Positions 8,559-50,484 of a stretch of DNA of 64,000 nt are shown one piece after another (within the stretch, counting starts at the first letter, position 1; each line of letters opens with the position of its first letter). The DNA is from Caulobacter sp. 32-67-35 (GTDB lineage: Bacteria > Pseudomonadota > Alphaproteobacteria > Caulobacterales > Caulobacteraceae): NCBI GenBank assembly GCA_002280875.1, contig NCEV01000009.1, positions 1-64,000 on the forward strand. The letters are read 5' to 3'. Under the pieces are notes generated by a model. It was not told the DNA's origin. It searched no databases and saw only the letters and a list, made by a program, of their open reading frames with translations. The translations under genes were made by a program, and so were the position numbers.

Positions 8559-8735
8559 TAGGACTCTGTACCTGGGGAGAAGGATCGCCCTGGAGGCGAG
8601 CGCCGGAAAGTGGGGGCGTGACGGGGTGTCTGTCAACGCGGCCCGTTCAAACAGCGACGTTTCCCGCGATTTGGTAGCCGATTGTTAAGGCTGGCCGGGT
8701 GATGATAGCGGCCGAACCCAACCCTTTTGGCGCTC

Positions 8736-31522: not shown

Positions 31523-31688
31523 TCACTTGCGGACAGATGTCTTGGTTCCGTCGCGGAGTTGGATCATCTTTGGGATGCGTTCGGGAATGAATGGCGATTC
31601 CCTTTGAATGCGTAGGAAGGAGGCCCGTCTTCAGTCCGATCGCGTACCCGCTTCACAGGAGCCGGCCCGGCTCCCAAGGGAGGACCTG

Positions 31689-32249
31689 ATGCAGGTGCTG
31701 TCCCGTCCACCGTCCGGCATGCCGGCTCTGGTGCTGAACGCCGATTATCGGCCCCTCAGCTACTATCCGCTGTCCCTCTGGCCCTGGCAGGAGGTGATCA
31801 AGGCGGTGTTCCTTGAACGGGTCGAGGTCGTTTCGACCTACGACCACGTCGTCCATTCGCCGTCTTTCGAAATGAAGCTGCCCAGCGTTGTTTCGCTGAA
31901 GCAGTATGTCCCGCAGGACCGGCCGCCGGCCTTCACGCGCTTCAACCTGTTTCTGCGTGACACCTTCTCTTGCCAGTATTGCTCGTCGCCCGACGACCTG
32001 ACCTTCGACCATGTCATCCCGCGCTCACGGGGCGGACGCACGACCTGGGAGAACATCGTCACGGCCTGTGCGCCCTGCAATCTGCGGAAGGGCGGGCGAA
32101 CGCCTCGCGAGGCGGGTATGCACCTGTTCCACACGGCGCGCCGGCCCAGCATGCATGAACTTCAGGATCGCGGCCGCCGCTTCCCGCCAGGCCACCTGCA
32201 CGCCAGCTGGCTCGACTATCTCTACTGGGATATCGAACTGGAGGCCTAG
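31689..32249 (+). CDS. HNH endonuclease family protein (integration target)
   Basis: 186-residue HNH protein. N-terminal PALVLNADYRPLSYYPLSLW, then zinc/HNH core: FSCQYC, DLTFDHVIPRSRGGRT, ENIVTACAPCNLRKGG. This family is nearly universal in alphaproteobacteria; its biological role is not established. ATG 31689 follows GGGAGGACCTG. The last nine codons (LYWDIELEA) are duplicated at 42036-42064; the present end (GAA, GCC TAG) is supplied by the integrated element, whereas the original end (GAG, GCG TGA) lies at the far side. Confidence 0.92.
   Translation: MQVLSRPPSGMPALVLNADYRPLSYYPLSLWPWQEVIKAVFLERVEVVSTYDHVVHSPSFEMKLPSVVSLKQYVPQDRPPAFTRFNLFLRDTFSCQYCSSPDDLTFDHVIPRSRGGRTTWENIVTACAPCNLRKGGRTPREAGMHLFHTARRPSMHELQDRGRRFPPGHLHASWLDYLYWDIELEA
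32221..32245 (+). repeat. attL core of the integrated island
   Basis: 25-bp direct repeat with 42036-42060. The first 16 bases (TCTACTGGGATATCGA) are identical in both copies, followed by one A/G difference and eight more identical bases. It lies in the last codons of the HNH gene. The identical 16 bp is the probable strand-exchange core. Confidence 0.9.
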
Positions 32250-32345
32250 AGTGGTTTGGCGTGGATTGAGATTGCACTTCCAACTGAAAAGCTTGAAGTA
32301 TCTTCTGTCTGCGTGGTTCGGTGTGGGTTGGGAGTTACCTAATCA

Positions 32346-32365
32346 GTGATGACCGCGTGATGACC
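32346..32365 (+). repeat. Left arm-type repeats for integrase
   Basis: GTGATGACC occurs at 32346-32354 and again at 32357-32365, an 11-bp period. The same motif pair occurs at the right end of the island (41930-41949). It lies between attL and the integrase start codon, where integrase arm-binding sites and the integrase promoter are expected. Function inferred. Confidence 0.6.
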
Positions 32366-32387
32366 GAAGAAAGCTTGGCGGCTTGCG

Positions 32388-33671
32388 ATGGCGAAGGGCG
32401 AGGCGGCGCGTGTAGTGCGCCTGACGAAACGATCAGTGGATGCGGTGGCGAAAGAAGCCGCTCGCTTCACGGTTTGGGACAGCGATCTCAAGGGGTTTGG
32501 CCTGCGCGTCGAACCCAGTGGCTCCAAGACCTTCATCGTCCGCTACCGTGTCGGCGGTGGTCGGCGAGGGACGTTGCGTCAGGCCAAGGTCGGTAGATAT
32601 GGCAAGCTGACTCCGGATCAGGCCAGGGAGGAAGCTGAGCGCATCCTTGCCAAGGTTGAACTCGGCCAGGACCCACAAGCTGACAAAGCGGCCGCCCGCG
32701 AAACGCTCACCATGGCGGAGCTATGCGATCTCTACCTAGCCGAGGGGATCTCCGCGAAGAAGGCGAGCACGATCGCTCTCGATAAGGTCAGGATCGCCAG
32801 GCACATCAAGCCGGCGATCGGCGCGCGGAAGATCACAGATCTACACGCGTCCGACATTCAGCGACTGACGCAGGACATCGCGGCGGGAAAGCTCAAGGAC
32901 CCGACACCGCATAGCCGGGGAGGGCCGGGCGCCGCAGCAAGGACGGCAGGCCTCCTTGGAGGGGTCTTCAAGTTCGCCGTCGCTCGCAAGCTGTGCGCGG
33001 AAAACCCCGCCGCCGGGGTGAAGCGACCGAAAGACCGAAAGCGTGATCGGTTTTTGTCGCCGAAGGAATTGGGCGCGCTGGGCGACGCGCTGACCACCGC
33101 CAGCGAGCGCGGAGCCAACCCGGGGCTCGTGACCATCATCCGCCTGCTTTGCCTCACTGGGGCTCGCAAGAACGAGATCGCTCGATTGCGGTGGTCGGAG
33201 GTCAACATCGAGCGCGGACGTCTTGAGCTTGCCGACAGCAAAACAGGCGAGAAAGTCGTTCCCCTCGGTGCCGCCGCAATGGAGTTGTTGAGCGAGGTGG
33301 CCCGAACGAACAGCGCCTATGTTTTTCCGGACCCCAGGGACGCCTCCATACCTATCCGGAATCTGGACTGGTTCTGGGTTGGGATACGCAGAGCTGCAGC
33401 GCTAGAAGACGTGCGTATCCATGATCTCCGCCACAGCTTCGCGAGTGTGGCTGTGGCCGGCGGTTCTAGCCTTTTCCTCATAGGAAAGCTCCTTGGTCAT
33501 GCCGATGCTGCGACCACGCAGCGCTACGCTCACTTGGCCGACGATCCCCTGCAGGCTGCCGCAGATCGGATTTCTCAATCCATCTCTTCCTCAATGGCCG
33601 GCACCTCCGCCGAGGTGCGAACCTTGCGCGGTGATGGCGACGTTAAGCCAACGCGGAGGGTGGGGGCGTGA
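32388..33671 (+). CDS. int: Tyrosine recombinase/integrase (DUF4102 type)
   Basis: 427 residues, P4-like integrase. N-terminal DUF4102 arm-binding domain (TVWDSDLKGFGLRVEPSGSK, VGRYGKLTPDQAREEA), a core-binding domain (TMAELCDLYL onwards), and the catalytic domain with Arg260 (CLTGARKNEIARL), His345-Arg348 (HDLRHSFASV), His371 (GHADAATTQ) and nucleophile Tyr380 (RYAHL). All catalytic residues are intact, so the island may still excise. Located 140 bp inside attL. Its stop overlaps the next gene by four bases. Confidence 0.96.
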   Translation: MAKGEAARVVRLTKRSVDAVAKEAARFTVWDSDLKGFGLRVEPSGSKTFIVRYRVGGGRRGTLRQAKVGRYGKLTPDQAREEAERILAKVELGQDPQADKAAARETLTMAELCDLYLAEGISAKKASTIALDKVRIARHIKPAIGARKITDLHASDIQRLTQDIAAGKLKDPTPHSRGGPGAAARTAGLLGGVFKFAVARKLCAENPAAGVKRPKDRKRDRFLSPKELGALGDALTTASERGANPGLVTIIRLLCLTGARKNEIARLRWSEVNIERGRLELADSKTGEKVVPLGAAAMELLSEVARTNSAYVFPDPRDASIPIRNLDWFWVGIRRAAALEDVRIHDLRHSFASVAVAGGSSLFLIGKLLGHADAATTQRYAHLADDPLQAAADRISQSISSSMAGTSAEVRTLRGDGDVKPTRRVGA

Positions 33672-34333
33672 GAGATTTCGAACTGATCGACGACCGCGCG
33701 GCCGACCCTATCGTGGCAACGGTGATCACCGCGATTATGCTCTGGCCTGATGAACCGGAGAAGCGGCAGCGGTGGGTAGAAGCTTCAGTGGCAATTGCGA
33801 ATGCCGACGAGCTGGCGGATGCCGAATCGGCGGCTCTGAATGTTGAGGATCTGCTCGATGAAGAGCGCGAGCGGCGTCTTCACGGAAAATCGGTCGGCAC
33901 GATCATTCTCAGCGTGACGGGGAATCCCGCTCTGTCGGTTGGGCGACTTCAGGATCAGATCAGCGAAGAGCTAATACGGGAGCGAGCCTACCATATCCGG
34001 CCCCAGACGATGAGAAACAGAGAAGGCCCTCACGGCCGCCTCCGGTCGGTCGCACACATGTGGGCGATCCATCAGCTCATCATCGCACAGGCGGAGGCTG
34101 ACCTTTATGACTTCCTCTGTCCTGTGGGCTTTCATTGGGAGTTCTTGAAGCTTGCCGATCAATTCAGAGCGCGCGCCGAAGCCACGCGGACGCCTCGTTC
34201 CCCCACCACCGTCATGCGTCCCGGCGAGGCCATCCTGCTACCACCGAGGATCGTCGCCCGCCTTGCAACGGTGGACGCTGAGTTATGGTTTTCGTCCGAC
34301 CTGCCGACCGCCGATAACTTGGGTGAAAAGTGA
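33668..34333 (+). CDS. Island protein of unknown function
   Basis: 221 residues starting at GTG 33668 in a GTGA overlap with int, so it is coexpressed with the integrase. Mostly helical and acidic in the middle (DELADAESAALNVEDLLDEE), then AHMWAIHQLIIAQAEADLYD. No motif recognised. The coupling to int suggests a role in excision or maintenance, which is inference only. Confidence 0.7.
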   Translation: MRDFELIDDRAADPIVATVITAIMLWPDEPEKRQRWVEASVAIANADELADAESAALNVEDLLDEERERRLHGKSVGTIILSVTGNPALSVGRLQDQISEELIRERAYHIRPQTMRNREGPHGRLRSVAHMWAIHQLIIAQAEADLYDFLCPVGFHWEFLKLADQFRARAEATRTPRSPTTVMRPGEAILLPPRIVARLATVDAELWFSSDLPTADNLGEK

Positions 34334-34368
34334 AGTCGGAAAGCATACGAAAATCAGCGACTTGTGAG

Positions 34369-34401
34369 TCGGTAAAAGTCGTATCACCTTCGGTAAAAGT
34401 C
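34369..34401 (+). repeat. Two 12-bp direct repeats upstream of AlpA-like gene
   Basis: TCGGTAAAAGTC at 34369-34380 and at 34390-34401, start-to-start 21 bp, about two helical turns. They lie 73-105 bp upstream of the HTH gene at 34474. Likely a binding site for that protein or another island regulator. Confidence 0.55.
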
Positions 34402-34473
34402 AGCCTCGCTTCGCGCTGACACCTTGCTCCCCGACGCACCGGACTGGCTGGTGCGGTTCTCGGGAGCCTACCC

Positions 34474-34710
34474 ATGCAATTGCATGCGTCCGAACACGCT
34501 TCGTCTTTCCCCTCTGATCGGTATGTCGATGTCAAAGAGGCGGCCAGCGTCGTCGGCTTGAGCGTCGACTACCTGAACAAGCTTCGCCTCAAGGGCGGTG
34601 GCCCGACGTTCAGTTCGTTCGGCCGCGCCGTCCGTTACAGACTGGGCAATCTCTACGAATGGGCGGCCAGCAAGGCGGCCCGGTCGACCTCAGATCGGGA
34701 GGCGGCGTAG
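34474..34710 (+). CDS. AlpA/excisionase-like helix-turn-helix protein
   Basis: 78 residues with a MerR/AlpA-style winged HTH: VDVKEAASVVGLSVDYLNKL, followed by the wing GGGPTFSSFGRAVRYRLGNL and YEWAAS. This is the layout of phage AlpA and excisionase-like DNA-binding proteins, which switch on excision in P4-like elements. The 12-bp repeats upstream are candidate targets. Confidence 0.82.
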   Translation: MQLHASEHASSFPSDRYVDVKEAASVVGLSVDYLNKLRLKGGGPTFSSFGRAVRYRLGNLYEWAASKAARSTSDREAA

Positions 34711-34714
34711 CACC

Positions 34715-34933
34715 ATGACCAACACGAAAAAACCCACCGCGCTCGAACGCGGTGGGCTTTCCAATATGGTTCTGCTTGGCGGCGAACCTACTTATCCTAT
34801 CTCGCTGGCGGGGCAATTTCAACAGCGCGCCCGCGGCCTATATGCTGAAGCGCTCGGACTCAGGGGGGCGGACAGACATGCCGCCCTCAGCCTTAGCCGC
34901 CACTTTGGCCAAGCCGGCTGGAGGGGCGTATGA
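34715..34933 (+). CDS. Small island protein with embedded hairpin
   Basis: 72-residue frame (MTNTKKPTALERGGLSNMVL) from ATG 34715; its stop overlaps the next start codon in ATGA, which argues for translation. However, codons 7-14 coincide with a terminator-like hairpin (34733-34756), so part of this frame may instead be an attenuator. No family assigned. Confidence 0.5.
   Translation: MTNTKKPTALERGGLSNMVLLGGEPTYPISLAGQFQQRARGLYAEALGLRGADRHAALSLSRHFGQAGWRGV
34733..34760. terminator. Terminator-like hairpin inside a small ORF
   Basis: CCCACCGCG (34733-34741), loop CTCGAA, CGCGGTGGG (34748-34756), flanked by six A on the left and CTTT on the right. Perfect 9-bp arms. Works on paper best for leftward transcription (T6 after the stem) and weakly for rightward. 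Confidence 0.6.
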
Positions 34934-35280
34934 GCTACCCCAACTCTCCCGGTTTCAAGGGCGGAACGGCAGGGACTGGCGCCCTGGCCGCCAGCAACTA
35001 CGCCCCCCAGGTCAAGGGGCGCCGCGCCCAGGTACTCGCGGGCCTAGAGGCAGGGCCAGCGACCGCCGAGGAGGTGGGCGAACGTGTCGGTCTGCACTGG
35101 TATCTGACGCGGCCCCGTCTGTCCGAGTTGAAGGCGCTTGGCCTGGTCACCGAAACTGGCGGTCGCGGCCGTGGCGCGCTGGGCGGCGAGGTGAACGTCT
35201 GGCGGCTGACCACCGCCACGGAGAGGTCTCAGTTCGCGGCCGCGGTAGCGGCTGAGAGCCTCAAGGAGCCGACTCCGTGA
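34930..35280 (+). CDS. Small winged-helix DNA-binding protein
   Basis: 116 residues. The central part resembles a winged HTH: GPATAEEVGERVGLHWYLTRPRLSELKALGLV, recalling phage and island regulators of the DprA/MarR-like wing type. The N-terminus is Gly/Ala-rich. Overlaps both neighbours by four bases (ATGA upstream, GTGA downstream), so it is part of a tightly coupled cassette. Confidence 0.65.
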   Translation: MSYPNSPGFKGGTAGTGALAASNYAPQVKGRRAQVLAGLEAGPATAEEVGERVGLHWYLTRPRLSELKALGLVTETGGRGRGALGGEVNVWRLTTATERSQFAAAVAAESLKEPTP

Positions 35281-35543
35281 GCGGTCAGCTTGTGATCGCG
35301 ACCCTACCCGGCAAGGGCGGGGAGGCGGTGCGGATCGCGCTCGACCAGCGCGCCGGTGTCGACGTCGTAGATATCCGGATCGTGACCGTTCTGTCGAAGG
35401 CGAGCCGCATCCCTATTCCAACCAAGATAGGGCTCTGCCTCGACCTCGCGACCTTGCCGGAGCTGATCGCGGCTCTTTCTCAGGCGAAGGCCAAAGCCGT
35501 TGACCTGGGCCTCCTGGAGAAAGGAGGCGCCGGGCTCGCTTAG
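35277..35543 (+). CDS. PC4/YdbC-like ssDNA-binding protein
   Basis: 88 residues starting GTG 35277. The pattern EAVRIALDQRAGVDVVDIRI followed by IPTKIGLCLDLATLPELIAA matches transcriptional coactivator p15 (PC4) family proteins: a beta sheet ending in PT(K)xG, then a helix. PC4-like proteins bind single-stranded DNA as dimers and occur in phages and mobile elements, where they may aid replication or transcription. Family call by pattern only. Confidence 0.6.
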   Translation: MSGQLVIATLPGKGGEAVRIALDQRAGVDVVDIRIVTVLSKASRIPIPTKIGLCLDLATLPELIAALSQAKAKAVDLGLLEKGGAGLA

Positions 35544-35609
35544 GGCCGTTGGAGCGCGGCGGTGGTCCCCGTCGCGCTCTGGCGCGCCCTTGCGTCTCTG
35601 GCGGGCTCT

Positions 35610-36086
35610 ATGGCCAGCAATCACAACAAGAAGGGGCGATCAAAGACCGGCAGCTTCGTCATGCTCCAAAGGTTCATGATGGACTCGCCGGCATGGGGCG
35701 ACCTCACCCCTGCAGCCCGGTCGATCTATCTGGAGGTGGCGAAGCTCTACAACGGCAGGAACAATGGTTTCATTGCGCTGTCGGTTCGGGATGCTGCCGA
35801 GCGGTGCCGTGTAAACAAGGATACCGCCGCCAAGAGCCTGGCGCTGCTGCAAGGGCACGGGTTCATTGAATGCGTCACGCCGGGTGGTTTCAGCCGGAAG
35901 ATCAGGCACGCGACCGAATGGCGGTTGTCGATCGAGCGTTGCGACAAGACGCAAGCGTTGCCGACGAAGGCCTTCATGAGGTGGCGACCACCGCCGGGCG
36001 AATGCAAAACACGGTCCGGAAATAGTGCTCTATCGGTCCCCTCATTTGGGACAGTGACGCCGTTTCCGACCCCGAAAAGGGCCTGA
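35610..36086 (+). CDS. Rep/HTH-like island protein
   Basis: 158 residues from ATG 35610 (MASNHNKKGRSKTGSFVMLQ). The core DSPAWGDLTPAARSIYLEVA, YNGRNNGFIALSVRDAAERC, and NKDTAAKSLALLQGHGFIEC is a winged-helix arrangement like plasmid replication initiators and recurs on many alphaproteobacterial islands. The C-terminal tail lies over the first GGTCCC palindrome at 36034. Function is not established; replication or copy control of the excised circle is the best guess. Confidence 0.7.
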   Translation: MASNHNKKGRSKTGSFVMLQRFMMDSPAWGDLTPAARSIYLEVAKLYNGRNNGFIALSVRDAAERCRVNKDTAAKSLALLQGHGFIECVTPGGFSRKIRHATEWRLSIERCDKTQALPTKAFMRWRPPPGECKTRSGNSALSVPSFGTVTPFPTPKRA

Positions 36087-36149
36087 CGGTCCCCTCGTTT
36101 GGGACCGTGGCGGGCGTTTTCGGCCAATCACGGTCCCCTCGTTTCGGAC
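36034..36149. repeat. Three GGTCCC inverted-repeat units
   Basis: CGGTCCCCTC-A/G-TTTGGGAC-like units at 36034-36052, 36087-36106 and 36131-36149. Each is an inverted repeat (GGTCCC, 7-nt spacer, GGGACC; the second is perfect, the others have changes in the right arm). They start inside the Rep-like gene and continue beyond it. Confidence 0.7.
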
Positions 36150-36553
36150 ACATATACAATCTAGCCATAGGCGGTAGCGAAGCCGGGAGCGTAGCGCGCC
36201 CCCCATAGGGCGCCGTAGCGAGCGAGCGGCTTCGCGGAGGCGACCACCGCCCCGCAGGTCGTCAATCACGCTCGCACGCGCGTAGGCCGCTGAAACCTGC
36301 TGAAACCTTCCCGGCGGTGGTTCGTCAAAGGCTCCCGCGCGTAGGCCCTGCGAACCGCGCTGCGAACCTGAAAGCGCCTCTCGCTGGGCCAATCGGTCTA
36401 GCCTCTGTCTATGTTGGCGGGCCGGCGCCGTCAGAGGAGATGACCCCAACGACGCATGAAGGTCGCGGCCGCCATGCTTTCAAATGCTGTATCCGCCTGT
36501 TCCCAAGCGGCCATCAGTCGCTCCCGGTTCGCCCCTCTCGGCATTGGCTTGCC
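36087..36553. other. 467-bp repeat-rich non-coding region of the island
   Basis: Between convergent genes. Besides the GGTCCC units it holds a tandem 10-bp repeat (GCTGAAACCT at 36289-36298 and 36299-36308), related CTGCGAACC copies at 36348 and 36360, and a repeated GCGCGTAGGCC. Its position next to a Rep-like gene makes it the best candidate for an origin of replication or transfer on the island. No protein gene is supported here. Confidence 0.45.
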
Positions 36554-37027
36554 CTAGTCGGGCCATAGACGCTTTTGAAGCTCGCGCGCCCGATCACGCA
36601 TCCGGCCGAGTTGATCTTCGGACTGCGATTGGTAGGTGAGCCGGTGCGCCTGGCGGGAGGCGAACACGCCACCGACCATCGGCAGGACTTCGCACCGCCG
36701 GCCATGCTTGGGGCAGAGGAAATAATACCGCCGCCCGCCGTAGCGCATGGGGCGACTGTCTAGCCTGATCTCCTGCACGCGCGGGTCGCCGTTCAGGTTG
36801 AACCGGACCACCACAAAGCCCGCGTCAGGATCGGCTAGGTTCACCGTGACGCCCACGCTCCCGGTTTCCTCGCCCGTTGCCCTCCGATGCCACCGCTGGA
36901 CGCCAGACGTGACTGCGCCAGGCACTAGGAAGCCTTGACGACGCATCACCCGCAGATCGAGCCGAATGGCAGCATCGACCGTTCCCCGGTTTCGCTCCCG
37001 GTATCTGCCCGAATTACTGCCGCCCAT
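36554..37027 (-). CDS. Conserved island protein, zinc-finger-like
   Basis: 157 residues beginning MGGSNSGRYRERNRGTVDAA; middle contains GGRRYYFLCPKHGRRCEVL, a CPxxGRRC-type motif, and the end ASRQAHRLTYQSQSEDQLGR. Proteins with this architecture (GGSxSGR start, RLDLR, Cys pair, YxSQ-E) are common on alphaproteobacterial islands and lack an assigned function. Tandem TGTCAT repeats lie 81-110 bp upstream of its start. Confidence 0.75.
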   Translation of the reverse strand: MGGSNSGRYRERNRGTVDAAIRLDLRVMRRQGFLVPGAVTSGVQRWHRRATGEETGSVGVTVNLADPDAGFVVVRFNLNGDPRVQEIRLDSRPMRYGGRRYYFLCPKHGRRCEVLPMVGGVFASRQAHRLTYQSQSEDQLGRMRDRARELQKRLWPD

Positions 37028-37107
37028 ATTTTCCGAAATCCTTTGGCTAAGGGGCTATTCTATCAGTCTCTGGTCTAGCGGGCGTCGCCGCCCCCTGCCG
37101 CGATCCT

Positions 37108-37137
37108 TGTCATTTCCTGTCATTTTCTGTCATGCGC
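37108..37137. repeat. Three tandem 10-bp TGTCAT repeats
   Basis: TGTCATTTCC, TGTCATTTTC, TGTCATGCGC in direct succession, exactly one helical turn apart, in the gap between 37162 and 37027. Candidate regulator-binding array for the leftward gene. Confidence 0.6.
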
Positions 37138-37161
37138 TAGGGGGCGGTTCCTGAGCGGTAG

Positions 37162-37827
37162 CTAGGAGCTGAGGGGCGATCGCATCGGTTGAACGTCGGC
37201 CAAGATGGCCTGTGCCCACTTCGTGCCATAGGCGTTGAGCGCATCTTGATCGTCGATGAACCGCGCGGCGACCTCGGCTTTTGCGGCGAACCCTTCACGC
37301 GTCTTGGGCCGATAGGCGCGGATCTGATCCAGGATCGCGTCTTCGGCCTCCAGAGCATGCTCAGCCGCCGCTTCGGCGGCAACGGCGTTGGCTTCGCGTT
37401 CGGCGGCCTGGGCACGTTTCCTGTACGCGGTCAGGGCACCGACGACCTCGACGCAACGGGCATGATGGGCGGCCGGGATCGGGTAGTGCAGGCGGGGAAG
37501 CAGCGCGTCGCGAGCGGCTAAGCAGGCGTCGAGATCGCCGTAGAACGGCTCGCTTACATCGTCGCCTACTGGCAGGCCAGCAAACCAATCGGAGGTGCGT
37601 TTGCGCAGCGCGCCTGGCGGCTGGCCGAGGAGTTGCTTGTACCTCTGATATGCCGCCGTCGAGGCGACATCGGCCTGGGCATGCGCGTCGCCTGCGGCCT
37701 TTAGGGCTCTGATCAGCGTGAAAAGTGCTGCGTCTTCGGCAGCGGTACCGAAGGCGGCAGCCGGCGCCGAGATGGCGGCGACAGCGAGGCCTGCCCCGAA
37801 GAGGGCGCGGCGGGTTGGAGCAGCCAT
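37162..37827 (-). CDS. Exported helical protein with Tat-like signal
   Basis: 221 residues. N-terminus MAAPTRRALFGAGLAVAAIS has a TRRALFG twin-arginine-like motif and an AAAFG cleavage region. The mature part is almost all helix with long Ala/Glu stretches (EREANAVAAEAAAEHALEAE), suggesting coiled coil. Its start overlaps the preceding stop (TGATG). No family assigned. Third gene of the 38461-37162 operon. Confidence 0.65.
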   Translation of the reverse strand: MAAPTRRALFGAGLAVAAISAPAAAFGTAAEDAALFTLIRALKAAGDAHAQADVASTAAYQRYKQLLGQPPGALRKRTSDWFAGLPVGDDVSEPFYGDLDACLAARDALLPRLHYPIPAAHHARCVEVVGALTAYRKRAQAAEREANAVAAEAAAEHALEAEDAILDQIRAYRPKTREGFAAKAEVAARFIDDQDALNAYGTKWAQAILADVQPMRSPLSS

Positions 37828-38075
37828 CAGTTAGCCCTCCCCATGACGGGAGCGCACATGATCCTCGCGGCCTTGCGGACCGCAGCCGCCTGTTCCGGGG
37901 ACTTGGCCCCGTCGAAAGACTTCTGAAACTGGCGCATGAACGAGCGGCGCACGTCCCTGTCCATGGCGTCGATTATGGTTCCGACCAGGGCGATCAGAAC
38001 TTCGGTTTCGGTCGGCTCCGGTGCCTCGATGGGAGGCGGCGTCGGGCGCGTGAATTGGATGATCTGGGCGCTCAT
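37827..38075 (-). CDS. Small island protein, second in leftward operon
   Basis: 82 residues: MSAQIIQFTRPTPPPIEAPE, then a helical TETEVLIALVGTIIDAMDRD and RRSFMRQFQKSFDGA. The MSAQIIQF start recurs among small proteins of alphaproteobacterial mobile DNA. It overlaps the upstream gene by four bases. Function unknown. Confidence 0.65.
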   Translation of the reverse strand: MSAQIIQFTRPTPPPIEAPEPTETEVLIALVGTIIDAMDRDVRRSFMRQFQKSFDGAKSPEQAAAVRKAARIMCAPVMGRAN

Positions 38076-38461
38076 GCCAGCACCAGTGCGCGAGCAGCGT
38101 TTGGGGCCGGGCCTCGCTTCGGAGCGCGAGCAACGGCGGGGTCGGTGGCGTCGCCTTTCCAGCGGGGGAACAGCTTCGCCATCATGGCGCTGGTCAGCAT
38201 CTCGGCGGCGGCTTCCGCGTTCGCGCCGCCGTACATCGTGACCTTCACGGCACCTGTGAAACGACCGCGCGCGTCGCGGAGCATCACGGTCTTGACGCTG
38301 CGGGCGCGAGCGGCGAGATCGGCGCGGGCCGCAACGGCCTGTGCCATGGTCACTGGCTTGTAAACCGAGGCGCTGGGAGCGCGCGGCGTGTTGAGACCGG
38401 CGAGAGCGGCTTCAAGGTTCGCCATGGTGCTGGCGGTCGGCGAGAAGGTTTGAAGTTCCAT
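38072..38461 (-). CDS. First gene of island cargo operon, unknown function
   Basis: 129 residues: MELQTFSPTASTMANLEAAL then a basic, beta-rich centre (SVKTVMLRDARGRFTGAVKV, TMYGGANAEAAAEML). The start lies 50 bp from the nearer of two palindromic operators, so expression is probably controlled by the divergent regulator at 38611. No family recognised. Confidence 0.65.
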   Translation of the reverse strand: MELQTFSPTASTMANLEAALAGLNTPRAPSASVYKPVTMAQAVAARADLAARARSVKTVMLRDARGRFTGAVKVTMYGGANAEAAAEMLTSAMMAKLFPRWKGDATDPAVARAPKRGPAPNAARALVLA

Positions 38462-38511
38462 AATGTGGCCCCTGGACCTAACGCTCCGGGCCTAGCGCCC
38501 TTGAGCAATGT

Positions 38512-38565
38512 CCTAATTTTAGGTCTAGCCATCCTCCCTGTCAACAGTCTCGCCCTAAAACTAGG
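38512..38565. promoter_or_regulatory. Two palindromic operators in divergent control region
   Basis: CCTAATTTTAGG (38512-38523) and CCTAAAACTAGG (38554-38565), spaced 42 bp start to start, in the 149-bp gap between the leftward cargo operon and the rightward HTH gene. They share the half-site CCTAA. Layout matches a phage-like immunity switch. Binding by the 38611 product is inferred. Confidence 0.6.
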
Positions 38566-38610
38566 ACGAAAATTGTTTGATTGGTCGGATTTATGGCCTA
38601 TTAGAAGGCC

Positions 38611-38850
38611 ATGGACCCGACCATTCTAAAGCGAGCTGGCGAAGCCCTATTCGGGAACCAGTGGCAGACCCCCTTGGCCGAGGCCCTAGGCGTTTCTGAT
38701 CGCACCATGCGCCGGTGGGTCGCCGGTCAATCAAAAGTTCCTAACGGCGTAATTGCCGATGTAGAGCGGGCTGCACGTCAGCGCGTCGCAGACATCTATG
38801 CCTTTATGGCCGAATTGACGGCCACGGCAGCCAAGGGCGGCGAGGCCTAG
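38611..38850 (+). CDS. YdaS/Cro-like HTH regulator of the island
   Basis: 79 residues; DNA-binding core FGNQWQTPLAEALGVSDRTM then RRWVAGQSKVPNGVIADVER, resembling YdaS/Cro-type prophage regulators. It is transcribed away from the cargo operon and the two operators lie just upstream. Probably sets the on/off state of the 38461-37162 operon and its own gene. Confidence 0.75.
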   Translation: MDPTILKRAGEALFGNQWQTPLAEALGVSDRTMRRWVAGQSKVPNGVIADVERAARQRVADIYAFMAELTATAAKGGEA

Positions 38851-39028
38851 TGGCCGGCACGCCTATAGATCGCTGGGGCGTTCGGAGCGCCGATCAAACC
38901 GACACTGAGATCTGAGACCCGCAGGGACCTGTCGGCCGCCCTCGCGCGTGCGCGTATTGGTCCGCAAATTCCTCGCGAACCTTGGCTCGGCAGACCGTCC
39001 CGCGTGGTGACGTCAGGAAAACCTTGCC

Positions 39029-39049
39029 GAGGCCTGTAGCGCAGGCCTC
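39029..39049. terminator. Hairpin between two island genes
   Basis: GAGGCCTG (39029-39036), loop TAGCG, CAGGCCTC (39042-39049): perfect 8-bp arms. No T-run follows. It lies 180 bp beyond the regulator gene and may end its transcript. Confidence 0.4.
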
Positions 39050-39115
39050 CGTCACCTCGCCTTGTCAGATCGCGGTTTGCTGGCGAACATGCCGTCGATG
39101 GGCGGAGGCGCTACC

Positions 39116-39487
39116 ATGCGGCGAAATCGGGATCTTGAGCGCTGGGCTATGGAGAGGCGCGAGGAGGTCGAGCAAGTCGATCTGTCTGAGGTCTACGGCA
39201 GGGTCGATCCCAGCGGCCAGGTGATGGATGGCTGGGCCGGCATCAGCGTCAGCTCGTCGAACAACGAGCGCGGCCGGTCAGCGGTGGAGATCGACGTGCG
39301 GCCAGTTCTGCTGGGCCGTGTTGAGGTGCGGGTGAAGACGACATCCAGAAAGCCCGGCGCTGGCAAAGACCATTCCAAGTCGCTCTACGTAAACGCCACG
39401 CCGGAGGCGATCCGCGACTTTGCCGGTCGCCTCATGAAGTGTGCCGACCTCGCCGAGCGCAACAAGCTGAAGCCGCGTCCTGTCTGA
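39116..39487 (+). CDS. Island protein of unknown function
   Basis: 123 residues from ATG 39116 (MRRNRDLERWAMERREEVEQ); ATG 39089 would add nine residues. The acidic/basic N-terminal helix is followed by a beta-rich region (AVEIDVRPVLLGRVEVRVKT) and a helix (ATPEAIRDFAGRLMKCADLA). No motif recognised. Codon use is like its neighbours. Confidence 0.55.
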   Translation: MRRNRDLERWAMERREEVEQVDLSEVYGRVDPSGQVMDGWAGISVSSSNNERGRSAVEIDVRPVLLGRVEVRVKTTSRKPGAGKDHSKSLYVNATPEAIRDFAGRLMKCADLAERNKLKPRPV

Positions 39488-39661
39488 CAGCGCTCGACGC
39501 GCGTTGGGTAATTGCCGGCTGAAGCATGCCTGGTGAAGCGCCCAGCAGTGCGCAAGCCGGAAGCCCGGGCAACTAAAAAGCCTGCCGGTTAGGGCGGTCT
39601 GGGTCGGAGATCGATGGCGTGATAGAGTGCTGAACGTAGGGGTGGGCGCAAGGTGAAGGGT

Positions 39662-39835
39662 ATGCGAAACGACGCAGCCATGAAGTGGGCCTCACGCATC
39701 GCCATTCCGATTACGTGCCTGATCTGTCTGTTCGGCTTTTGGCGCTTATCGCCAGGCGTCACCTTCATCGTGGCGCTGGTGGCGCTGATTGGGCTCGTTG
39801 CCGCTCTATGGATCGCAGGTAAGGAAGAGAACTAG
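39662..39835 (+). CDS. Small two-helix membrane protein
   Basis: 57 residues from ATG 39662 (in-frame GTG at 39653 possible). Two hydrophobic segments: IAIPITCLICLFGFW and TFIVALVALIGLVAALWIAG. The upstream sequence GCAAGGTGAAGG provides a purine-rich ribosome-binding site. Function unknown; ends four bases into the convergent frameshifted gene. Confidence 0.6.
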   Translation: MRNDAAMKWASRIAIPITCLICLFGFWRLSPGVTFIVALVALIGLVAALWIAGKEEN

Positions 39836-40685
39836 TCGGTACCGGGCGCTAGCACGCGCACGACGGACCTGCCTCCGCGCTGGACCTTCCATTCACCGTC
39901 GACCAGTTCCTCTTTGACTTCGAGGCGTAAGCGCATCGGGATGCCTTCCCGCATCTCCATATAGTTCCCAGAGCCGATTGCCTCCAGGACGACTGGGTCG
40001 CGCATGATGGCCTCAAATTCCGGCAGACCCTCAACCTTGAAGGTCCACGGACGCTGCGTATGCGTAAGGGTGGGGCGGACTAGCACAACGTCAACGATCG
40101 GATTGGTGATGCGCGGTTCGACCTTCGCTGGCTCAATCTCCCAAAGACCGCCAGCCTCTGCGAGCTGGGCACCATGGCTATCGGCTCACCACCGGGAAGT
40201 TCCTTGATCCCTACAGCCGTGATCGAAGGGTCGGCCTCAATCGTCCGGTAGAATTTCTTCCTAGCGACTATGACATCGGGATCGCTCCTCGCCTGTTCGG
40301 CGAGTTTATTCAGCACGGCGCGATCTTCGTCGGTGAAGTCTGGGTCGCCGAAATAGAAATCGTAGGTTGGTGGGCCTGTGAAGATCAAAAAGCCGGCGAT
40401 AGCTATGGCGAGTTTTTTCGTCCTGGGAAGTTTCGATCCACCCCGCTCAAGACGCTCCAAGCGAGCTTCGATGTTATTCTCAACCCACTCCATAACGGCG
40501 TTGAGGATGAGGCTGGACTCGTCAGCATCGACGATCTGGACCTTGATCTGGGCTTCAGGGTCCAAGGCGCGCGCAGATGCTCGCATGCCCTCGACCCACG
40601 CCAATGAAGCACGAGCAACAACCTCAAGGTCGGCCTTCTCGCCCGCCTTCAGTTGAAAGTAGAGGCTTACCCGGTCGTCTGACAT
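39832..40685 (-). pseudogene. Frameshifted island gene (membrane protein)
   Basis: Two overlapping frames read as one protein of about 280 residues. Codons from 40685 give MSDDRVSLYFQLKAGEKADL, one membrane helix (KKLAIAIAGFLIFTGPPTYD), then DPDVIVARKKFYRTIEADPS; at about 40156-40166 the sense switches frame, and the second frame continues AQLAEAGGLWEIEPAKVEPR to VVRVLAPGTD at 39832. In the first frame the tail turns to Arg-rich nonsense and stops at 40080. Loss of one 7-base unit in a CTCGCAG repeat would explain it. Function of the intact protein unknown. Confidence 0.75.
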
Positions 40686-40708
40686 TCACACCTCCAAGGG
40701 CCGGGCGG

Positions 40709-41422
40709 TCACTGAGGGCCGGGCGCAGCGAGCGGCTTGACGACCTGATAGTGGATGCTCGTGTTGGTGGCCTTCAGCACCTTGAGCCGGGCGCCGCGGA
40801 ATCCGATCTCATCGCCCTCGCCCAGGTCATAGGTAAGCTCTTGCGAGAAAGCCGGGCGCGCCATGTCGCGAATGAACTCGCGGTAGGAAAGGCTGACCGT
40901 GCCTTTGGACACGCCGGTATAGGAGAGGGTGACGCGGAAACCATCGGCGGACACTTCGGCAATTCCAGCGTCTGTGATTTTCGGCTGTGACAGCGAGCCG
41001 CTCGCGCGCATACCGAGATCGTTTTCCCAGTAGGCCCGGGGGGTATCGGGCGCGTCGGAAGGGACCAAGATTCCGCCCTTCGGCCAGGGCATGTTCATGC
41101 CTAGCGCGTTCAGCGTAACCCCGCCGACCGCCTCGTAGTACCTGCCCTTGTCGTTTTCGACAGCGAGAGCATAGAGGCCCGGTGCCAAGACGATCTTGTT
41201 GCCAAGTGCGGATCCAGACTTGATCGGCTCGAGCAGTCGCAGCGACTGACCTGCGTAGTACCGCTCCAGGATCATCACGGGTTGGCCGATCTCAGCTTCG
41301 ACTTCCTCGCCAACGGCTGGAAAGCTTCGCTCGTGGAGTCGCAACGGCACACTCGCGCCGACGGCTAGCGCGGACGAGGACAGAAGGCAGAGCGTGAAAG
41401 CTATAGCCGCCGCGCGAACCAT
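40709..41422 (-). CDS. Secreted island protein of unknown function
   Basis: 237 residues with a standard signal peptide (MVRAAAIAFTLCLLSSSALA). The mature part is beta-rich, with GQSLRLLEPIKSGSALGNKI, LAPGLYALAVENDKGRYYEA, and a paired RVTLSYTGVSKGTVSLSYRE. No catalytic motif. It lies 24 bp upstream of the frameshifted gene on the same strand. Confidence 0.65.
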   Translation of the reverse strand: MVRAAAIAFTLCLLSSSALAVGASVPLRLHERSFPAVGEEVEAEIGQPVMILERYYAGQSLRLLEPIKSGSALGNKIVLAPGLYALAVENDKGRYYEAVGGVTLNALGMNMPWPKGGILVPSDAPDTPRAYWENDLGMRASGSLSQPKITDAGIAEVSADGFRVTLSYTGVSKGTVSLSYREFIRDMARPAFSQELTYDLGEGDEIGFRGARLKVLKATNTSIHYQVVKPLAAPGPQ

Positions 41423-41443
41423 ACCGGCCTCCCTCTCTGATTG

Positions 41444-41662
41444 TTACGCTGGGTTAAGGGGGCGGCGCAGGTAGCCATAATGCACTGTTCCCGCCATGCA
41501 GCCGCTGACCAGGTCCCAGCCCTTGGCGGCGTGCTCGTTCAGCGTCTTGTCGAACTGGGCCGCCCCGAGGATGGCGAGGGTCTTATATTCGAACCGGTGG
41601 GTGTATTGGCCATCGCGCGAGTCTTGCTCTGCGACCACTGGTGCCTTCTTGCCCCCAAACAT
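41444..41662 (-). CDS. DUF4177-like small protein
   Basis: 72 residues from ATG 41662 (MFGGKKAPVVAEQDSRDGQY). YEYKTLAI-type strand (HRFEYKTLAILG), then FDKTLNEHAAKGWDLVSG and VHYGYLRRPL, the pattern of DUF4177. Family function unknown. Immediately upstream of the secreted-protein gene (21 bp). Confidence 0.7.
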   Translation of the reverse strand: MFGGKKAPVVAEQDSRDGQYTHRFEYKTLAILGAAQFDKTLNEHAAKGWDLVSGCMAGTVHYGYLRRPLNPA

Positions 41663-41897
41663 GATCGCTCCCCAACCAGCCTTCGCTTGATGGTTGATCG
41701 TCACCGTTCAGCGCGACCTTGGCAAGAGGGGCGAGGCGCTATGCGACGTCCTTAACTTAACGGGATCGCTGTATCCCTCACCGAGAAGCGAAGTCCATCG
41801 GCCGGCCTACGTAGAAAAGACCCGACTGTTGAACGGCCAGCCTTCGACCGAAAGCGATGCGGCGCCCATCTCAAGACCGATCGGTCGGTCCGCCACA

Positions 41898-41935
41898 CAC
41901 CACCTGCCGGCCGCCGAAAGTGCCGGCAGGTGGTG
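41898..41935. repeat. Perfect 14-bp inverted repeat
   Basis: CACCACCTGCCGGC pairs with GCCGGCAGGTGGTG across a 10-nt loop. Could terminate transcription at the island edge or act in recombination. Its right arm overlaps the first right-end GTGGTGACC unit. Confidence 0.65.
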
Positions 41936-41949
41936 ACCATGTGATGACC
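41930..41949 (+). repeat. Right arm-type repeats for integrase
   Basis: GTGGTGACC (41930-41938) and GTGATGACC (41941-41949), again with an 11-bp period and the same orientation as the left-end pair at 32346-32365. The right pair ends 86 bp before the attR core. Confidence 0.6.
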
Positions 41950-42035
41950 TTGTACCGCAATAGCCTATGGATCTAGTGCGTAGTTGCTTGAAAAATATAG
42001 ACAAAATGGACCTTAAGATCGCCAGTTCAATATCC

Positions 42036-42064
42036 TCTACTGGGATATCGAGCTGGAGGCGTGA
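42036..42064 (+). repeat. attR core and original HNH gene end
   Basis: Second copy of the att core. It still encodes LYWDIELEA and a stop (GCG TGA) but is detached from the gene. Differences from attL (GAG for GAA, GCG TGA for GCC TAG) are all synonymous. This is the chromosome's own 3' end before insertion. Confidence 0.85.
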
Positions 42065-42077
42065 GGCGGCTCTAGTG

Positions 42078-42386
42078 TCAGGTGATGTGCTTGACGCTGA
42101 CAGGGTCGCTGGCCGGGAAGCTTTCTTCCAGGCCTTCGTCTAGCAGGGCTTCCTGGCGGTCTTCAGCCAGATCGACATGGTCAGTCAGCTGGTCGTGCTT
42201 TTCACCTTCGGGCAAAGGTTCAACCACGCGGCTGGCAGGGGTGTCTTCCTTCTGGAAGGCCTCCTTGACGTCGGCCTCGCTGACGCGGTCTTCGGGATGG
42301 CCGGTTTGGCCCAGGTCCTGAGCCTGTGACCAGTCGCCGAGTACGCCGGGCGCTGACGCGTCTTGTGTCTGCTTGGTGTCGGTCAT
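42078..42386 (-). CDS. Small acidic protein, function unknown
   Basis: 102 residues, very acidic and hydrophilic (MTDTKQTQDASAPGVLGDWS; EALLDEGLEESFPASDPVSV). The EESFPASDP ending recurs in small alphaproteobacterial proteins of unknown role. First gene right of the island, on the opposite strand. Confidence 0.6.
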   Translation of the reverse strand: MTDTKQTQDASAPGVLGDWSQAQDLGQTGHPEDRVSEADVKEAFQKEDTPASRVVEPLPEGEKHDQLTDHVDLAEDRQEALLDEGLEESFPASDPVSVKHIT

Positions 42387-50399: not shown

Positions 50400-50484
50400 G
50401 CGGGCGTGGTGAAACTGGTAGACGCGCCGGACTCAAAATCCGGTTCCGAAAGGAGTGTCGGTTCGACCCCGACCGCCCGCACCA
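50400..50484 (+). tRNA. tRNA-Leu (anticodon CAA)
   Basis: 85-nt class II tRNA. Acceptor strands GCGGGCG (50400-50406) and CGCCCGC (50474-50480), discriminator A, CCA encoded (50482-50484). Anticodon loop CTCAAAA reads CAA, for UUG codons. A long variable arm (TTCCGAAAGGAGT) and T loop GTTCGACCC confirm Leu. Any short ORF read across it is spurious. Confidence 0.95.

Follow-up and report, generated by a model that had tools for sequence, protein, structure and literature searches.

Evidence for a 9.8-kb genomic island that silently replaces the last codons of a conserved HNH gene

Gene-restoring integration into protein genes is already known. Elements in icd of Escherichia coli replace the 3′ end of a protein gene with element sequence, with few or no changes to the protein. 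Here we describe a new example, with host and target unrelated to those of icd, in 64,000 nt of Caulobacter sp. 32-67-35 (GCA_002280875.1; contig NCEV01000009.1, positions 1–64,000, forward strand), the whole stretch analysed, hereafter called the window. A tyrosine recombinase has almost certainly integrated a 9.8-kb genomic island into the 3′ end of a conserved gene for an HNH protein at this locus. Terminal repeats, paired sites in both arms, an empty site, recurrence in other genomes, a silent pattern of differences and a clade of related integrases are shown by the sequence.

Islands specific to dusA resemble this locus in pairing one tyrosine-integrase family with one conserved protein gene, in varying in size and cargo, and in restoring the reading frame with element sequence (PMC4482086, PMC8409611). 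Their integrase family is dedicated to the 5′ end of dusA, whereas the HNH gene has its 3′ end replaced and its protein left unchanged (PMC4482086). SGI1 (Salmonella genomic island 1)-type islands share a tyrosine integrase, a small excisionase and the 3′ end of a conserved gene, trmE, but the target is another one, and SGI1 is mobilizable whereas the window element has no relaxase match among 15 open reading frames (ORFs) (PMC8409611). Islands at the 3′ ends of transfer RNA (tRNA) genes likewise restore the split target and leave the displaced fragment at the other end (PMC4383910). An earlier note, made from the letters of the window, had taken protein-coding targets with silent restoration to be less common than tRNA targets. 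A TIGER/Islander survey of 1.76 million islands gives this no support, with 43.4% in protein-coding sequences, a figure covering all such targets, restored or not, and 33.8% in tRNA or transfer-messenger RNA genes (PMC12424338). No paper naming an HNH gene as attB came up in our literature searches; the TIGER database and supplements lay outside this search and may list the site.

The element is bounded by a direct repeat of 26 nt with one mismatch (32220–32245 and 42035–42060), one copy of which lies in the target gene, whose reading frame is complete after integration. The exact block measures 17 nt (32220–32236) and the two copies start 9,815 nt apart. The repeat of the earlier note was thus real but one base short in both its lengths (16 and 25 bp), while its element of about 9.8 kb with an intact tyrosine integrase agrees with the distance and the three-domain ORF found here. 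As it had said, LYWDIELEA-stop is the reading of either copy, although the codons and the stops used are not the same (Table 1). A DNA search of the window's own 4.1-Mb assembly with the HNH gene gave matches at these two places only. Since independent site pairs also occur at both ends (see below), the repeat is not due to chance. The integrase ORF starts 138 nt past the first stop, that of HNH and attL, and has arm-binding, central and catalytic domains. The HNH protein (Pfam HNH_5, 2.9e-16; HNH, 1.2e-15) was detected in 72/75 genomes of the genus, including 60/60 good ones. The GC content of the element is 62.5%, against 64.3–69.4% in equally long stretches (9.8 kb) from elsewhere in the 64 kb. 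A tRNA was rejected as the target: the single tRNA gene of the window (50400–50484) lies outside the element.

The uninterrupted arrangement was found in another genome of the genus, G027, where only 8 nt separate the HNH stop from an orthologue of the gene at 42078, with no island; the attR copy in the window is followed by the same host gene order. This order is the one that the earlier note had expected of an empty site. The tail it had expected, GAG CTG GAG GCG TGA, was not found, G027 reading GAA CTC GAG GCC TGA. In a second genome, G005, another core, altered at five of 27 nt, lies 11.2 kb downstream, and the same host gene comes next. What still matches of its integrase is about 50 residues, interrupted by a stop in frame, indicating a decayed element. 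A related integrase stands behind the HNH gene in 2 of 70 fetched loci of the genus, the window and G005, as judged with a panel of 106 integrases that unrelated integrase families could escape and on loci of which 32 have at most 1.5 kb downstream, three of them less than 260 nt.

Lambda-like integrases have arm-type sites. The motif TGRTGACC occurs in the element four times, counting either strand, as two pairs with sites 11 bp apart. The pair pattern TGRTGACC-N3-TGRTGACC gave 2 matches in the window and 0 in 100 shuffles, and the whole 4.1-Mb assembly held the same two pairs only, one inside each element end. Such a pair lies upstream of 12/12 HNH-adjacent integrases and of 0/94 other integrases (2/94 have a single site), some of the 94 having short upstream DNA. 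At least one copy of the motif was present in 12/12 left and 12/12 right element flanks examined, the right-flank copies at a near-constant distance from the core. Pairs in both arms, each with its sites spaced by one helical turn, are consistent with lambda-like arm-type sites, which the integrase would bind.

Recurrence at the same gene was seen in two scans. When 84,980 species genomes were scanned with the integrase, the best 80 of 295 loci were kept, and those ranked first to tenth and twelfth in similarity (55–66% identity) all lie 144–203 nt behind an HNH gene. No HNH gene was found at that place in the other 69 of these 80, several with little upstream DNA; in one of them, L096, an HNH gene lies 5.9 kb away in the other orientation. 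A profile of eight HNH-adjacent integrases, run on 390 genomes of the family, returned 16 matches of at least 654 bits, the next being 565, and all 16 lie 145–195 nt from the HNH-end core (11 of the 16 are loci also in the first scan). For the 565-bit match, the genome's single core match is on another contig. The 16 carriers fall into genus codes g1 (one), g6 (11) and g20 (four). The core pattern itself was matched by 338/390 family genomes, matches being listed genome by genome to G233 and, for later genomes, where there were two or more. Two exact cores on different contigs, with no clade integrase, were seen in G284, G351 and G379. Of 190 genomes drawn from across the class, a looser tail pattern picked out 43; two copies were present only in the window's genome, and 0/41 genomes outside the family had a second one. 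This is a weak negative because the tail pattern misses many HNH tails. The idea of a general integration hotspot at this gene therefore holds within the family (16/390 genomes) and found no support in the class-wide sample. Named phages and plasmids were rejected as the source (top-ranked matches of 33.5% and 49% identity, respectively), and none of 18 integrase relatives on viral contigs adjoins an HNH gene.

Comparison of the two gene ends provided the evidence for silent repair. In 14 attL/attR pairs with an intact integrase, the 30-nt tails differ at 57 nucleotides in all, every one of them silent, although these differences are not independent, because many of the pairs are copies of related elements. 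This bears out the proposal that the element carries a silent replacement 3′ end and leaves the HNH protein unchanged. Within each pair the two copies agree in their last residue, which is Ala in five pairs and Pro in nine. The stop is TAG in all 14 attL tails and TAG (6), TGA (5) or TAA (3) in the attR tails; the uniform attL stop perhaps reflects shared ancestry or is perhaps part of a binding site. One element, recognized by its identical attR left flank, is present in four hosts (G079, G081, G082 and G257) with a constant attL tail, ATA GAG CTC GAA CCT TAG, and attR tails that vary with the host. This indicates that the attL end comes from the element and, with co-linearity, gives the direction of insertion. 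The codons of the empty site were set aside as proof of direction, G027 being mixed between attL and attR.

Element remnants were found in G005, G138 (where the catalytic half is what is left of the integrase), G191, G228 and G270. The three pairs that are decayed or lack an integrase (G138, G270 and G005) show 11 silent and 4 protein-changing differences, the latter all in attR (W to R in two copies, two changes in G005), with the reading of the attL copies kept. The G191 pair differs by 3 silent changes, and no integrase was found in the DNA fetched for it. The attL of this pair (contig C1, 1256502, +) and attR (2545489, −) lie 1.29 Mb apart on a 2.8-Mb contig and on opposite strands, as if an inversion had split the decayed element. 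In G270 (C3, 150631–151711; L212), two cores lie 1,058 nt apart in a locus with no panel integrase, a possible deleted remnant. A stop-less core of G228 (C1, 2187213, −; L211) is found apart from the HNH gene, close to an integrase fragment of 36 residues, and could be a relic at a secondary site. The core at position 8564 of G211 contig C68 (L216) is flanked on both sides by element-type sequence, which would fit a tandem array or the joined ends of an excised circle. In G134 (L215) and G158 (L219), of genus code g6, the HNH gene ends with an element-type tail and about 35–39 nt of element-like flank, with no panel integrase in the fetched 6–7 kb; here the gene seems to have kept its borrowed end after the element was lost. 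Element-type tails in G154, G222 and G228 were not counted as such fossils, their likeness ending at about the stop codon (30–34 nt).

These data suggest how the gene would be rebuilt. The integrase would bind the TGRTGACC pairs, 11 bp apart, in both arms of attP. The block common to attL and attR in all 14 pairs is TAYTGGGAYAT, and strand exchange is likely to fall within these 11 bp of the HNH gene because, to the left and to the right alike, one pair or more disagrees at the adjoining base; in the window this would be TACTGGGATAT (32223–32233). Right after the exchange region, attP would supply its own codons for the remaining protein and the stop, so that integration would silently swap the host's last codons and strand the original end at the far side, in attR. 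The small AlpA-like protein is the likely excisionase, and the excised circle would read distal arm, CTCTACTGGGATATCGAACTGGAGGCCTAG, integrase arm. We infer binding, strand exchange, excision and present-day mobility from the sequence features described above.

Other origins of the repeat and of its silent tail were considered. That a fragment of the HNH end was duplicated independently of integration, with an integrase nearby by coincidence, would suit the shortness of the exact repeat (17 bp), but the empty site, the recurrence with the same codons in 16 genomes, the arm pairs and the single integrase clade leave this next to no credence, and we regard it as refuted by the recurrence. HNH nucleases are common in mobile elements, which could suggest that the HNH protein belongs to the element as a homing-type nuclease guiding insertion. 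This is very improbable, as the gene lies outside the element, occurs in nearly all genomes of the genus, and has a related integrase behind it in so few of the fetched loci. Identification of the protein as IscB was also rejected, NCBIfam IscB/Cas9 models scoring far below cut-off and the HNH domain alone being shared.

A more serious possibility, though still an unlikely one, is that selection plays no part in the silent gene end of attP: the element would have picked up an HNH orthologue's tail by chance at an earlier excision, the identity of this tail serving recombination only. Any orthologue tail would show silent differences, and the two copies in G077 have no difference at all. Likeness between attL and attR, however, ends at the stop codon, the next 34 nt being 15–47% identical in 18 pairs, a point limited by the fact that the block common to all 14 intact pairs is only 11 bp long and lies upstream of the stop. 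In addition, one element keeps its distinct tail across four hosts, the last residue agrees within every intact pair, and 0/14 intact pairs have an attP tail encoding a different or truncated C-terminus. Finally, the displaced attR copies of decayed elements lose the reading and the attL copies do not.

Several points weigh against interpreting the locus as an island that restores its target. G027 does not belong to the window's own species, and its tail codons fit attL at two places (GAA and GCC) and attR at the stop (TGA). Kinship among the 14 pairs reduces the weight of the silent differences, and mere capture of an HNH orthologue's tail by attP would lead to silent divergence as well. The absence of arm sites beside the 94 other integrases is in part unobserved. 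The core pattern found no match in 52/390 family genomes, including all 25 of genus code g4. Lastly, excision, the circle and transfer have the standing of predictions. As a separate observation on genus code g4 (G104–G128; 0/25), several of its genomes carry more distant integrases of the family.

A single clade holds the 12 HNH-adjacent integrases (SH-aLRT [Shimodaira–Hasegawa-like approximate likelihood ratio test] 100; 0/500 shuffles as low) in a 79-sequence tree, midpoint-rooted and built by a quick method with no bootstrap from 79 of the 106 panel integrases (L151–L163 and L168–L181 left out). tRNA genes were found at 10 of 26 scanned loci outside the clade, the targets being the 3′ ends of tRNA-Arg(CCG), tRNA-Thr or tRNA-Gly. 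The 3′ part of the tRNA (45–61 nt) recurs in 10/10, starting 207–248 nt before the integrase match, whereas 40 control windows per locus had at most 10 nt in common. The HNH element differs from these relatives in its 26-nt repeat and protein-coding target, and also in the position of the integrase, which lies beside the displaced tRNA fragment in 10/10 and beside the restored gene in the HNH clade. Five of the tRNA-site loci (L094, L097, L100, L113 and L114) belong to the group holding the HNH clade and five (L119, L121, L123, L125 and L126) fall outside it. tRNA targeting is thus probably older, with the other 16 of the 26 loci having no assigned target, and a change of target by the HNH clade is probable, given the ten relatives beyond it that occupy tRNA 3′ ends.

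Taken together, these results may be read as one history, for and against which we find the case evenly balanced. One integrase lineage would have left tRNA 3′ ends for that of a single protein gene, with the target now rebuilt by the opposite end of the element. It would then have reached three or more genera of one family, its passengers being conjugative-like, phage-like and small islands. Its silent ends would match the host's last residue, and in a few hosts the borrowed end would have outlived the element and become permanent. The locus adds a well-bounded protein-gene attB with natural replicates (one clade, arm sites, 14 attL/attR pairs, an empty site and fossils), and allows a direct look at the change of target by an integrase and at the silent upkeep of a borrowed gene end. 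With attB in most genomes of the family, the int/attP module could serve as an integration tool for Brevundimonas and relatives.

Table 1. Coordinates of the features of the island and its insertion site in the window.
Feature	Position	Strand	Remarks
Host HNH gene, last codons probably element-supplied	31689..32249	+	186 aa from ATG 31689; upstream ATG at 31608
attL, core and putative element-supplied gene end	32220..32249	+	CTC TAC TGG GAT ATC GAA CTG GAG GCC TAG
Putative arm-type site pair (TGATGACC N3 TGATGACC), integrase-side arm	32347..32365	+	97 nt after attL stop
Tyrosine integrase, 427 aa, intact	32388..33671	+	Pfam Arm-DNA-bind_3, Phage_int_M, Phage_integrase; phrog_1 3.8e-69
Protein without Pfam or PHROG match, overlaps integrase stop	33668..34333	+	
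AlpA-like small helix-turn-helix protein, candidate excisionase	34474..34710	+	phrog_66 6.9e-7; HTH_17 2.4e-4, below cut-off
Replication-initiator / DnaD-like protein	35562..36086	+	phrog_186 1.4e-5, phrog_270 7.7e-4; HTH_36 1.3e-4, below cut-off
Three iteron-like direct repeats CGGTCCCCTCRTTTSGGAC	36034..36156	+	overlap and follow end of replication-like gene; possible origin
YdaS-like Cro-type helix-turn-helix protein	38611..38850	+	Pfam YdaS_toxin 1.1e-7, 32 bits against cut-off of 30
Cargo protein, phrog_1353 (unknown function)	40709..41422	−	3.6e-26; no Pfam match
Putative arm-type site pair (TGGTGACC N3 TGATGACC), distal arm	41931..41949	+	85 nt before attR core
attR, putative original host HNH gene end, now orphaned	42035..42064	+	CTC TAC TGG GAT ATC GAG CTG GAG GCG TGA
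Host gene directly after HNH at the empty site	42078..42386	−	orthologues in G027 (79% identical) and G005 (81%)

The cargo of the window element was scanned as 15 ORFs chosen among overlapping frames, a short ORF near 39660 being left out. Among these 15, no relaxase or type IV secretion genes were found with Pfam, and no capsid, portal, terminase or tail genes with PHROGs and Pfam. PADLOC, run on 10 of the 15, gave a single weak CARF-type match (34930–35280, 6e-5). The phrog_66 family matched by the AlpA-like protein is annotated as excisionase and transcriptional regulator, and other HNH elements encode relatives of this protein, with 63–66% identity in L085 and L086 and 43% in L084. Phage-inducible chromosomal island (PICI)-like satellites have an integrase, an AlpA-like regulator, a replication module, no structural genes and dependence on a helper. 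The window element has integrase, AlpA-like and replication-like genes. The replication-initiator-like protein and the iteron-like repeats suggest that the element may replicate after excision, like satellites and small islands.

Elements at the HNH site range from 9.8 to 103 kb and differ in cargo. The largest, in G079, measures 102.8 kb and has a VirB4/TrbE-like ORF among 10 of its long ORFs scanned. Another 10 ORFs were scanned from three further elements: that of G076 (14.7 kb) gave tape-measure and terminase matches, that of G078 (15.1 kb) a baseplate-hub match, and that of G258 (15.7 kb) a YadA-type adhesin and a relaxase match below cut-off. Such varied cargo at one site points to an integration module common to different kinds of element.

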